Positions 10,746 through 37,608 of a stretch of DNA of 64,000 nt are shown one piece after another. Position 1 is the stretch's first letter. Each line of letters begins with the position of its first letter. The stretch is taken from assembly GCA_030648295.1 (NCBI GenBank), contig JAUSID010000140.1, positions 62,001-126,000 on the forward strand, read 5' to 3'. The notes under the pieces are model-generated. The model was not told where the DNA came from. It did not search any database and was given only the letters and a program-made list of their open reading frames with translations. Origin of the DNA: Opitutaceae bacterium. GTDB taxonomy: Bacteria; Verrucomicrobiota; Verrucomicrobiia; Opitutales; Opitutaceae. The translations under genes and the position numbers were made by a program.

Positions 10746-12485
10746 TCAGCTGCCCTCCGACGTGAACACACGCCGGCCCTCGATCCACGTCTGAAGCACC
10801 TTCGTGTCCTTGAGGTCGTCAATGGGGCAGGTGAGCAGATCGCGATCGACGATGATGAAATCGGCGCGCTTGCCCGGCTCGAGCGAGCCGATCTCCTTTT
10901 CCCAGAAAAGCAGGTGGGCGTTGTTGCGCGTGTAGAACTGGATCGCCTGCTCCCGGCTGAGCGCCTCCTCGGGCCGCACGCGACCATCGTACCACCTCGC
11001 GGCGCGCGTGATCGTGATCCACATGCCCAGAAATGGATTGTACGGATTGATCGAGCGGAGATCACCGAGCTTCTGCATGTGGTCGGAGCCGCCGCCGGTG
11101 ATGGCGCCGGCCGCAAACAGGCTGCGCAGCGGTTGGAACTGATCGAGCCGCTCGTAGCCGAACTGCCGCACCAGCGTGCGCGCGTCGAGGTACAGCCAGA
11201 TGGGCTGGATGTCGGGCACGATCCCGAGCCGCGCGCACCGCTGCACCGTGTCACGTGTCATGAAGCTCGAATGCGAGAGGCCCATTCGCAGCGGTTGCAC
11301 CGGGATGCTCGCATTCAATCGATCGTAGGCGTTCACGAGCGTCGTCACGGCCGCGTCGCCCTGCACATGCGCGGTGAACTGCATCCCGTGCTTCGCCACG
11401 CGCTCGACCATCTGGTACAGCCGGTCGTCCGGGATGTTCAGCACGCCGCGATACTTCTCGTCGGCGATGCCGTAGATTTCGCTCTTGCCCCACGGTTTCA
11501 GCATGTAGGCGCTGCCCGTCAGCATGCCCCCATCGAGCCACACCTTGGTGCCGATCAGGTGGAGCCAGCCGTTGTCCTTCCGCAACGGATTCGCCGCGAT
11601 CCCGTCGATGGCCTCGAGAATCGGCTGCATCGCACCGTTCGTGGGAAACGTGTGCGATACCGCCACGCGGATGGTGAGTTCCTTTCGGTCCAACAAGCCC
11701 TGATACACCGCAAGGTTTTGCTGGTTTCCACCCCGCTCGCCGACCGCGGTGATCCCAATCTGATTGTAGGCGCGGAGCAGGTTGCGCGTGCGCTCGTGGC
11801 GATCGGCGTCGGTCGGGCGGCGCCCGACCGATGCCGTTTTGTTCACGAACCGGTCCAGCCCGCGCAGCAGCCCGGTGGGTTCGCCCGCGGAATCCTTCTC
11901 CAGGTAGCCGGGACCGCCGTCAGTCACCTGGAACTTCCGATCGATGCCGTTCAGTTTTAACGCGAGGCTGTTCAACATCACGTCGGGCCCGGTGTGAAAT
12001 GCCACTGCGTGTTTCGGCGCCGCCGCGTCCAGCTCCGCGCGGGTCGGGAAACGCGACTCCTTCAGCCGCGTGATGAAAACCTGCGAGAGTGAAATCAAGC
12101 CGCCGGCCGGCACCACCTTCGCGCGATCGCGGAAGTAGGCCAGCACGTCCGCGACCGTTTCCATGTCGGGGATGACATGGTCGAACTCGACCATGGCGGC
12201 GTTCGCGGCGTGGACGTGCGAGTCGATCAGCCCCGGCAGCACCATCCGGCCGCGCAGATCATGAACCGTGGTGGTGCCGGTCTTCGCCTGGGCGAGGATC
12301 TCGCGGTCGTTGCCCACCGCCACGATCCGGCCGTCGCGGACCGCGAACGCGCGGGCCACGCTGAACCGGCCGTCCACCGTCACGACCTTGCCATTGTGGT
12401 AGATCGCGTCGGGCGCGGCGGTCTGCGCCGAAGCGCCGCCGATGACAATGAGGCACGCGGACAACAGGGAAATGCGTTTAGACAT
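10746..12485 (-). CDS. Amidohydrolase family 3 (YtcJ-like), exported
   Basis: The ATG at 12485 starts a signal peptide (MSKRISLLSACLIVIGGASA); 579 residues. The amidohydrolase core shows the first metal motif GLIDSHVHAANAA, the second-strand TFPTNGAMQ region, AHVQGDAAVTTLVNAYDRLN with its His, and the late Asp in AITGGGSDHMQKLG. The C-terminal strand LEPGKRADFIIVDRDLL is diagnostic of the composite amidohydrolase/urease fold. YtcJ-type enzymes hydrolyse amides or related C-N bonds; the substrate is unknown. It forms a two-gene operon with the downstream lipoprotein. Confidence 0.9.
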   Translation of the reverse strand: MSKRISLLSACLIVIGGASAQTAAPDAIYHNGKVVTVDGRFSVARAFAVRDGRIVAVGNDREILAQAKTGTTTVHDLRGRMVLPGLIDSHVHAANAAMVEFDHVIPDMETVADVLAYFRDRAKVVPAGGLISLSQVFITRLKESRFPTRAELDAAAPKHAVAFHTGPDVMLNSLALKLNGIDRKFQVTDGGPGYLEKDSAGEPTGLLRGLDRFVNKTASVGRRPTDADRHERTRNLLRAYNQIGITAVGERGGNQQNLAVYQGLLDRKELTIRVAVSHTFPTNGAMQPILEAIDGIAANPLRKDNGWLHLIGTKVWLDGGMLTGSAYMLKPWGKSEIYGIADEKYRGVLNIPDDRLYQMVERVAKHGMQFTAHVQGDAAVTTLVNAYDRLNASIPVQPLRMGLSHSSFMTRDTVQRCARLGIVPDIQPIWLYLDARTLVRQFGYERLDQFQPLRSLFAAGAITGGGSDHMQKLGDLRSINPYNPFLGMWITITRAARWYDGRVRPEEALSREQAIQFYTRNNAHLLFWEKEIGSLEPGKRADFIIVDRDLLTCPIDDLKDTKVLQTWIEGRRVFTSEGS

Positions 12486-12742
12486 GGCGGAAGGCGGGGA
12501 CAGGAGTGGAGGGCGACGCAGCGGGTGCGATGGCACGGCCCATTCTACGTCCCGGTTCGGGGCCGACATCCAGCGAAATGTTTGCGGGGCCAAACCGGCA
12601 ATCAGAGGTGAGCAACCGCGAATGAACGCCAATGAACGCGAATTCAGAGGCAGGCGGAGGCTCGAACGCGAGTCGCGGCGGTACTCCTTGCCCGATCAAT
12701 CGTTCCTTGACGGTCCCACGAGCGTAGCTACTTTGTAGAGCC

Positions 12743-12985
12743 ATGAAAACCGCGGTCCAACGTTGGGGCAACAGTCTGGCGCTTCGCATTCCCCGTGCCT
12801 ACGCTGCCGAAACGCGCATTGCAGAGGGTTCAGAGGTCGAACTCACACTGAAATCTGGTGCGTTGGTCGTGCGGCTGATCGCGCGAAAGCGGCACTCACT
12901 GGCCGACCTCCTGAAGCAGATCAAGCCCGGGAATCGCCATGAGTCGGTTTCGACCGGCCCCATGGTCGGGCGGGAGGTCTGGTGA
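12743..12985 (+). CDS. mazE: MazE-type antitoxin (AbrB/SpoVT fold)
   Basis: 80 residues. The N-terminal half is a swapped-hairpin DNA-binding domain of the MazE/PemI kind (MKTAVQRWGNSLALRIPRAY, then GSEVELTLKSGALVVRLI). The C-terminal tail (SLADLLKQIKPGNRHE) is the part that in the family wraps around and inhibits the toxin. The stop codon overlaps the toxin start (GGTGATG), the usual arrangement for keeping antitoxin in excess. MazE proteins typically repress their own promoter, which should lie in the roughly 100 bases between the left inverted repeat and the start. Confidence 0.9.
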   Translation: MKTAVQRWGNSLALRIPRAYAAETRIAEGSEVELTLKSGALVVRLIARKRHSLADLLKQIKPGNRHESVSTGPMVGREVW

Positions 12986-13329
12986 TGAGTTACGTCCCGC
13001 GTCGCGGAGACGTCGTGTGGCTGACCTTTGATCCGCAGGCTGGGCGTGAGCAGGCAGGCCGCCGTCCGGCGTTTGTCCTGTCGCCACAAGCGTACAATCG
13101 GAAAACCGGCCTGTTCCTCGCCTGTCCAATTACCTCGAAGGTGAAGGGCTATCCGTTCGAAGTCGCGTTACCGGATGACTTGCGTGTGACGGGCGTCATC
13201 CTGGCGGACCAGGTGAAGAGCTTGGATTGGAACGTGCGAAAGGCAGAGTTCGCGACCGCGACGACAGACGCGGTAATTGCCGACGTCCTCGCGCTCATTT
13301 TGCCGTTAATCAGCGAAGAAGGGGAATGA
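12985..13329 (+). CDS. mazF: MazF-type mRNA interferase toxin
   Basis: 114 residues from the ATG at 12985; a GTG three bases earlier is also possible. It follows the E. coli MazF pattern closely: YVPRRGDVVWLTFDPQAG, EQAGRRPAFVLSPQAYN, then CPITSKVKGYPFEVALP and ILADQVKSLDW. The two residues equivalent to the catalytic Arg and Thr of MazF are present (Arg27 in RRPAFVLSP, Thr50 in PITSKVKGYP). It should cleave single-stranded RNA at a short specific sequence when MazE is degraded. No damage is visible, so the pair is probably functional. Confidence 0.93.
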   Translation: MSYVPRRGDVVWLTFDPQAGREQAGRRPAFVLSPQAYNRKTGLFLACPITSKVKGYPFEVALPDDLRVTGVILADQVKSLDWNVRKAEFATATTDAVIADVLALILPLISEEGE

Positions 13330-13469
13330 GGTGACACCGCTGGTCGGCGATCAACGGTCACGTCCTGGCTCCTGCTCGTATTCGCGTCTATTCGTGTCCC
13401 TTCGCGGTTAACCCTGCCTGGGATCGATTCGCGATTGGATCCCGACAGAAAAGAATTGGAAGCGTCCGC

Positions 13470-14306
13470 ATGGCCCGCAACGCTCGCGCGATGCAGTTCG
13501 GAATCTGTAATGAAATTTTCCAGGGCTGGTCGCTGGCCGACACTTTTGCTTACGCCAAGAAGGCCGGCTACGACGCGGTGGAAATCGCGCCGTTCACGAT
13601 CACGAAGCACGTCACCGATCTGCCGCCCGGCGAGCGAACGAAGATTCGCGATGCCGCTGCGCGGGCCGGCATCGCCATCAGCGGGCTGCACTGGGTGCTG
13701 GTGCAAACGGAAGGGATGTACCTCACGCACCCCGAGGCCGCCGTGCGCGCCCGCACCGCGGGCTATTTCGTCGATCTCGTCGACTGCTGTGCGGATGTCG
13801 GTGGCACGCGGATCATTGTCGGCTCACCGAAGCAACGCAGCCTCATGGAGGGGGTCAGCTACCAGCAGGCGTGGGAGTGGGCGACCGGAGTGTTTGGCGA
13901 TGCGGTGAAGCGCGCGGAGGATCGCGGCGTGGTAATCTGCTTCGAGCCCCTCGCCCCGAGTGAGACGAATTTCGTGAATACGGCCGCGGAGGGCCGCCGG
14001 TTCGCGGCGCAGTTCGCGAGCCCGGCGATGAGCATCATTCTGGATGTGAAGGCCATGTCATCCGAGGGGAAACCCGTGCCGCAGATCATCCGCGAGAGCG
14101 CGAACCGCTTCGCTTATTTTCACGCCAACGACGTCAACCTGAAGGGGCCGGGCTTCGGCGACGTGGACTTCGTCCCGATTGCCGCGGCGCTGCGTGAGGT
14201 CGGTTACAAGGGCATGGTGAGTGTCGAGGTGTTCAAGTTCGACGAAGGTCCCGAGGCGATCGCGACGCGCAGCCGCGAGTATCTGAAAAAGGCATTTGGG
14301 GAGTAG
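13470..14306 (+). CDS. Sugar phosphate isomerase/epimerase-like TIM-barrel protein
   Basis: 278 residues, no signal peptide. A GGAAG ribosome-binding site about eight bases upstream supports the ATG at 13470 over the ATG at 13491. It belongs to the xylose-isomerase-like TIM-barrel (AP endonuclease 2) superfamily: FGICNEIFQGWSLADTFAYA, KKAGYDAVEIAPF. Likely metal ligands are Glu in VICFEPLAPSETNF, Asp in SIILDVKAM, His in FAYFHANDVN and Glu in MVSVEVFKF. Members isomerise or epimerise sugars or cyclitols in the cytoplasm; the substrate cannot be told. It is monocistronic and convergent with the DUF1080 gene. Confidence 0.88.
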   Translation: MARNARAMQFGICNEIFQGWSLADTFAYAKKAGYDAVEIAPFTITKHVTDLPPGERTKIRDAAARAGIAISGLHWVLVQTEGMYLTHPEAAVRARTAGYFVDLVDCCADVGGTRIIVGSPKQRSLMEGVSYQQAWEWATGVFGDAVKRAEDRGVVICFEPLAPSETNFVNTAAEGRRFAAQFASPAMSIILDVKAMSSEGKPVPQIIRESANRFAYFHANDVNLKGPGFGDVDFVPIAAALREVGYKGMVSVEVFKFDEGPEAIATRSREYLKKAFGE

Positions 14307-24766: not shown

Positions 24767-24924
24767 CAGTTCAACCGCGAATGGACGCGAATGAACGCGA
24801 ATGGAGCGAGGATCTTGGGGGGCATTGAACAACACTAAACGGTGACCGTAGTCCCGCTTGGGCAATTCTCCCCCTCCGCCTCTGGAATTCGCGTCCATTC
24901 GTGTTCATTCGCGGTTTTCCACTG
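24767..24924. mobile_element. 158-bp MITE-like element, copy A
   Basis: It begins CAGTTCAACCGCGAATGGAC and ends with the inverted counterpart TTCATTCGCGGTTTTCCACT plus G. The imperfect terminal inverted repeats are about 35 bases and bounded by CAGT/ACTG. The interior (CTTGGGGGGCATTGAA, AACGGTGACC, CGCTTGGGC) is recognisably shared with copy B at 37434-37594. No ORF of note. The remaining 24462-25073 interval, upstream of the DUF1549/1553 gene, holds no other feature I recognise beyond its promoter. Confidence 0.75.
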
Positions 24925-31624: not shown

Positions 31625-31992
31625 CGTGGAGTGCGGGTTAGTCTCCCGGCACGCCGACACCGCAGCTCCGAAATCTGAATGACTTTGAGCCGAAGCGCCG
31701 ATGTATCGTGAGGTCTTGGCGAGACAGCGGCCCGACTGTCTCAATTGCCTTCGAAGCGCATGCTTCGAACCCAGGACCAAAGGGACGCCGAATGCGTGGC
31801 GGAGGCAAGCTGCGATCTCGTTTCGACTCCGCGCCGTCATTCGCTCGTAAAGACCTGCACTCGCCCGTGGTTTGATTGGCCAGGCTGGGACGCACGGACA
31901 TGGCGGCGAGAACAGCGATTGCACTCGGACCGCGGATGGCCAAGTCTGCGGGCCAATGCCGGCGCGCGGATTGCATTGCCCGGCCACTTCAC

Positions 31993-37378: not shown

Positions 37379-37433
37379 CCGGTTTTACCGGCAGCCGCAC
37401 GTGGACCGAATTGCCCGCTCAGCCGGAGCAATT

Positions 37434-37594
37434 CAGTTCAACCGCGAATAAACGCCAATTCACGCGAATGAAGAGGGCGTCTTGGGGAGCATGGAAACGA
37501 TCAACCGAACGGTGACCATGGTTTCACTTGGGCGATCCGCGCCCCTCCTTCTCGGATTCTGCGTCCATTCGCGTTCATTCGCGGTTGTCCACTG
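37434..37594. mobile_element. 161-bp MITE-like element, copy B
   Basis: It starts CAGTTCAACCGCGAATAAAC and ends TTCATTCGCGGTTGTCCACT plus G. Terminal inverted repeats and interior (CTTGGGGAGCATGGAAACGA, AACGGTGACC, CACTTGGGC) match copy A at 24767-24924. It lies immediately after the truncated esterase and 15 bases before a second element, at 37609. Confidence 0.8.
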
Positions 37595-37608
37595 AATCGA
37601 TACGGCTT

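Follow-up and report, generated by a model that had tools for sequence, protein, structure and literature searches.

A mazEF gene pair between two single arms of a MITE-like repeat family most likely built around GxxExxY genes

Results

A mazE–mazF pair flanked by two inward-facing arms

The window, that is, the whole 64,000-nucleotide stretch of an Opitutaceae genome that was analyzed, carries a predicted type II toxin–antitoxin pair in the spacer between an amidohydrolase gene and a xylose-isomerase-like gene. The features of this locus are as follows:

10746–12486, minus strand: flanking amidohydrolase gene (PF07969), start near 12486
12614–12643, plus strand: left arm, three ~10-bp units, ending 99 bp before mazE
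12743–12985, plus strand: mazE antitoxin gene, an open reading frame (PF04014, E 5.3e-9)
12982–13329, plus strand: mazF/pemK toxin gene (PF02452, E 2e-23; NCBIfam endoribonuclease MazF, above cut-off)
13380–13409, minus strand: diverged right arm, located 50 bp after mazF, with 24 of 30 positions as in the left arm
13470–14306, plus strand: flanking gene for a xylose-isomerase-like TIM barrel (PF01261), with an ortholog in genome G002 that is 84% identical

An intact mazE–mazF pair between the arms had been predicted from the DNA, and both genes are indeed present, open and matched by Pfam families. Their order is that of a MazEF type II module, with a MazE-type antitoxin gene followed by the MazF/PemK toxin gene. 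The pair is single-copy in the genome, the four other PemK/MazF genes being different genes, all without arms. The closest named MazF matches come from Opitutia/Opitutae MAGs (82–83% identity). A search of the window between 12000 and 38000 for known RNA families returned one match only, which lies outside the mazEF stretch and belongs to the nhaA-I riboswitch family (31722–31772, minus strand; 48 bits vs. a gathering score of 37).

The original prediction placed inverted arms of about 31 bases around the gene pair. Inward-facing arms of 30 bp do exist, one single arm on each side, but the right arm has diverged. The left 20-mer is exact at 12614–12633, and the window contains five matches to the arm 20-mer at up to three mismatches, compared with a mean of 0.01 in 100 shuffles. 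The right arm is absent among the window matches within three mismatches of the left 20-mer. It differs from the family 20-mer at three positions and agrees with the left arm at 24 of 30; thus, the two arms match as members of a family and are not near-exact complements. Neither has the outer ends seen in the main family of compact elements described below.

A MITE-like repeat family with many arm copies

At up to three mismatches the arm was found 459 times in the 9.1-Mb genome, whereas a reversed control gave no match. At up to two mismatches there were 294 matches in the same genome, 46 in the congener G002 and 0–4 in the 25 other congeners, and at least one match was present in 116 of the 252 genomes of the bacterial family. 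Arm organization was analyzed in 1.87 Mb, about a fifth of the genome and in part picked around arms. This sequence holds 195 arm clusters, with 69 convergent pairs and 57 unpaired, and 63 of the 69 convergent pairs are no longer than 230 bp. Most arm copies reside in compact repeats of 77–207 bp. Such elements have terminal inverted repeats, are short and occur in many copies, as is typical of MITEs. The arms do represent a MITE-like family, in agreement with the original prediction, and the two compact elements proposed to share them carry the 20-mer at both ends with one or two mismatches (24773–24916 and 37440–37586):

24773–24916: compact element of the main family, 20-mer at both ends, outer ends diverged
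37421–37608 (about): compact element of the main family together with its outer ends, arms near 37440–37586

Both belong to the main compact family, a coherent group of 45 out of 65 gathered elements, in which similarity extends outward past the arms (AGCCGG..CAATTCAG..). The remaining compact elements score low against this group, and their resemblance, judged by inspection, is mainly in the arms. Six arm pairs are longer. A complete known gene is enclosed only in the mazEF one; another, of 581 bp, spans coding sequence, and the rest hold repeats or no clear gene.

Several other repeat arrangements were observed. Arms form same-direction arrays with steps of about 42–45 bp at locus L059 (1250–1363 and 1882–1953) and on contig C245 of the same genome (79071–79236). 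At locus L364 (contig C60 of genome G184, 1243–1623), a window-type arm pair surrounds two copies of a GGCCGCAAAA-type inverted-repeat element; here repeats are nested in repeats, and the inner element differs from the enclosing arm type. Contig C68 of the window's genome (97005–97644) carries a small ORF that looks like a helix-turn-helix protein, has no Pfam match and is flanked by two pairs of 25-bp palindromic repeats, one on either side.

Do the two mazEF arms form a pair?

The identity of 24/30 between the mazEF arms is to be compared with that of random arm pairs of the genome, which average 24.5/30, 43% of them agreeing at 24 or fewer positions. When the 194 other arms are ranked by likeness to the left arm, 160 of them come ahead of the right arm; ranked by likeness to the right arm, 96 come ahead of the left one. 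Within all 63 compact pairs the mean is 24.7/30, so that even in the main family the two ends of an element resemble each other no better, and therefore 24/30 taken alone is compatible with a true mazEF arm pair. The arms are more similar in the 19 compact pairs that do not belong to the main family, with a mean of 26.3/30 and 17 of the 19 at 25 or more.

We also looked at the arm borders, where a target-site duplication had been proposed as a check; none is visible, as the outer 20 bases, inspected by eye, share no direct repeat. If isolated arms were scattered at random over the 1.87 Mb examined, the probability of a convergent pair within 800 bp would be 0.12 with all sequence accessible, 0.35 with 30% and 0.56 with 15%. 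Since the arms are no more alike than random ones, show no visible duplication and could have met by chance with a probability of 0.12–0.56, they look unpaired, and we favor arms that were either placed separately or form a long-decayed pair, a captured unit being less likely.

The mazEF locus in relatives

In the congener G002, the same amidohydrolase and isomerase genes are 93 bp apart between starts, and both mazEF and the arms are missing; in the window the spacer measures about 1.0 kb. The isomerase ortholog is 84% identical and has the amidohydrolase gene beside it (69% by blastn). A site without the insert, as envisaged in the original prediction, is thus available in a congener. The adjacency of the flanking genes suggests that the window's lineage probably acquired mazEF and the arms, the alternative being a loss in G002. 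Alignment of the joined flanks gave no exact insertion joint, because the spacer sequences have diverged too far.

MazF homologs are present in 49 of the 252 genomes of the bacterial family, including the window's own. DNA similarity to the mazEF of the closest relatives runs from about 12706 to 13322–13329 and so ends inside the arms. Another 29 MazF loci retrieved from the bacterial family all lack enclosing arms of the window's type; at one of them (L131) a compact element is found further off.

A wider comparison of flanks (600 bp) at MazF loci detected inverted repeats scoring at least 16 at two out of 102 loci, L119 and L269, the best score in the cross-locus control being 14; 7 of 109 MazF loci had been dropped for too little flank. 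Accordingly, mazEF was rejected as regular cargo of arms. At locus L119, from genome G016 of the same genus, mazEF lies between two complete inverted REP/BIME repeats (1405–2199 of the fetched locus). Its MazF is 58% identical to that of the window, and its repeat, with 78 matches in G016, is unrelated to the arms.

GxxExxY genes lie between inverted arms

A different kind of gene turned out to be regularly enclosed by inverted arms. GxxExxY proteins (TIGR04256/PF13366), named by Pfam as members of the PD-(D/E)XK superfamily, were found in 214 of the 252 genomes of the bacterial family. With 500-bp flanks, inverted arms scoring at least 16 were detected at 53 of 71 GxxExxY loci, mostly the best-scoring matches and not a random draw, compared with 44 of 702 cross-locus pairs; three of 74 loci (L274, L379 and L057) were not located. 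At isomerase loci the count was 0 of 25 (600-bp flanks, one of 26 loci dropped). Further GxxExxY loci from eight arm-rich genomes gave 22 of 26 at the same threshold, in a set that has no control of its own and includes a few other palindromes; one of 27 (L435) was too short. The arms match within a locus and vary between loci, with CGAAT, CGGAG, CAGAG, CGAAA and CTAAT types.

The window's genome has such a gene at L059 (E 2e-31), and it is flanked by the window's own arm. The outermost inverted pair is identical at 32 of 32 positions and spans 848 bp, with further same-direction arms on both sides instead of one clean pair. Four GxxExxY examples with the window's arm or a closely similar one span 439, 446, 537 and 644 bp. 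The first 30 GxxExxY loci examined in other genomes all lack enclosing arms of the window's type, the arms there being of other sequences. Conversely, there is no GxxExxY gene between the mazEF arms, so that this stretch has the arm type without being a GxxExxY element. On contig C7 of the window's genome (26531–27217), two repeats with ACAGGAGG-type arms enclose a small ORF; arms of this type also flank the GxxExxY gene L058 of that genome.

The putative active-site residues D, E/D and K are conserved in all 96 aligned GxxExxY proteins (two of 98 were not located and were left out). Going by the Pfam name and the motif of the superfamily, we take these residues to be the PD-(D/E)XK site. By sequence, no solved structure was found for GxxExxY proteins, and a search of viral contigs for relatives yielded three pattern matches, none of them confirmed.

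Coupling between GxxExxY genes and arm copy number

We next consider how the arms of individual GxxExxY genes are represented in the window's genome. When 53 GxxExxY arms were counted in 1.24 Mb of it, excluding the contigs of L058 and L059, the arm of L059 ranked first with 82 matches and 22 compact pairs, and that of L058 second with 10 matches and four compact pairs; the other 51 gave 0–4. A shuffled L059 arm had at most one match. The arms of two more GxxExxY genes of this genome are rare, L056 with no matches and L057, read by eye, with 0–2. The arm of the gene in G035 has 19 copies in that genome, a number exceeded in 10 of the 251 other genomes.

Nine arm-rich genomes were inspected for the window-type arm at their GxxExxY genes. 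It was seen in G000, G184, G212 (two), G129 and, more weakly, G191. In G184 the arm pair is identical at 35 of 35 positions and the gene has one stop codon; in G129 the gene sits between two complete compact elements. The arm was not seen at the GxxExxY genes inspected in G002 (three of four, one being too short for the test), G222 (four of six), G067 (four of six) and G031 (four of nine). Over 53 GxxExxY loci, protein and arm similarity are correlated (r 0.56, p 0.0002), a result that inheritance of whole elements would equally yield. The nearest protein relatives of L059 carry other arms.

Discussion

Origin of the arms and of the mazEF stretch

The arm family and its copy number, the enclosure of GxxExxY genes, the covariation of arms with the proteins, a partial coupling to copy number and the insert-free site in a congener are established observations. 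In the light of these sequence comparisons, elements with a GxxExxY gene at their core are the most likely source of the arms. We give a probability of roughly one half to the reading in which the arms derive from GxxExxY elements moved by the GxxExxY protein and mazEF is an acquired cassette between single arms. In that case each arm would be a copied terminal repeat from a family of transposable elements, the coding members of which have GxxExxY as their one gene. Its product may bind the phased array of three ~10-bp units and cut at the element ends, and in this way could move its own element of roughly 440–640 bp and, in trans, the compact non-coding copies. The mazEF pair would represent a horizontally acquired cassette in the amidohydrolase–isomerase spacer rather than a mazEF transposon of recent date; the two single arms of the family on either side of it most probably arrived independently or else are what remains of an old, decayed pair. 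Both the role of GxxExxY as mobilizer and the order of events at mazEF are what we infer from these patterns. Against that role speak the low counts for L056 and L057, the rank of the G035 arm, the four arm-rich genomes without a match at the GxxExxY genes inspected, the different arms of the nearest protein relatives of L059, the several same-direction arms around L059 itself and the position of the G129 gene between two complete compact elements. The more general idea that GxxExxY proteins are mobilizers of minimal elements of ~440–640 bp, each recognizing its own arms of three ~10-bp units and giving rise to arm-matched MITEs in its genome, and that arms may also enclose other modules, the window's mazEF included, is put forward as tentative and on the doubtful side.

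The original prediction suggested a possible capture of mazEF by the arm pair, which would have brought it into the spacer as one unit, a non-autonomous toxin–antitoxin transposon. Such an event would fit the presence of one inward-facing arm at a short distance from the genes on each side (99 and 50 bp), as is also the case at GxxExxY genes, and the lack of both mazEF and the arms at the G002 site. Yet the likeness of the arms is at the random level, a target duplication is not visible, the pair is single-copy, none of the 29 related loci is enclosed, and the homology to relatives' mazEF ends inside the arms, all of which makes a single mobile unit unlikely. The arms are not two independent full elements in the literal sense either, because no complete compact element is present on either side of mazEF. 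A further possibility is that mazEF inserted into, and split, a compact element already residing in the spacer. What is left outside the mazEF homology amounts to about 172 bp, within the 77–207 bp range of compact repeats; however, the inner halves match the genome sample only over the arm plus about 20 bp, and here too the arms are no more alike than random ones. We consider a split element quite improbable.

It could also be asked whether the compact repeats were moved by some other transposase, such as RAYT/Y1, with GxxExxY genes merely sitting among repeats. The genome does have 11 Y1_Tnp matches, REP/BIME-type palindromes are frequent in the genus, and the mazEF of G016 lies between two complete repeats of that type. 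However, the arms do not enclose any of the 11 Y1_Tnp loci, and RAYT was rejected as their partner on this ground. Moreover, the arms of GxxExxY genes differ between loci and match within a locus, which would be hard to account for by a single shared repeat. We consider another transposase rather unlikely.

Relation to known systems

Several known systems resemble parts of this picture. The compact elements are like bacterial MITEs (PMC3733652) in being short, multicopy and devoid of coding capacity, with terminal inverted repeats. The usual partner of such MITEs is a known transposase, whereas here the candidate partner is a GxxExxY protein. TIMEs, miniature elements derived from Tn3, mobilize DNA segments between their copies and thus provide a precedent for cargo gain by MITEs; they differ in having 38-bp Tn3-type ends and target duplications of 5–6 bp, the arms described here consisting of three ~10-bp units (PMC4133298). 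Toxin–antitoxin pairs inside Tn3-family transposons (PMC7157771) are similar to the mazEF stretch in that such a pair resides within a transposable element, but they belong to full transposons, whereas the present pair lies between two arms without a transposase. REP/BIME repeats of the GTAG type, abundant in Verrucomicrobia (Opitutus terrae), are intergenic like the arms; REPs are self-complementary, whereas a single arm is not and pairs with the opposite arm (PMC3733652).

For GxxExxY itself, the portion of the literature searched contains a mention in passing, beside a reverse transcriptase (PMC8934634). In that portion we found no mention of PDDEXK_3 or TIGR04256, no tested function for this widespread family and no description of inverted arms around its genes. 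L059 is both a member of the family (TIGR04256/PF13366) and flanked by the window's arm.

Implications

Should the link between GxxExxY and the arms be correct, it would hint at what is done by proteins found in 214 of the 252 genomes analyzed, and a class of short repeats present in many of these genomes would have an explanation. It would also point to very small transposable elements that rely on a protein of a nuclease superfamily instead of a known transposase. Whether the arms can carry cargo could then be tested on the mazEF stretch; this part of the proposal is weak at present.
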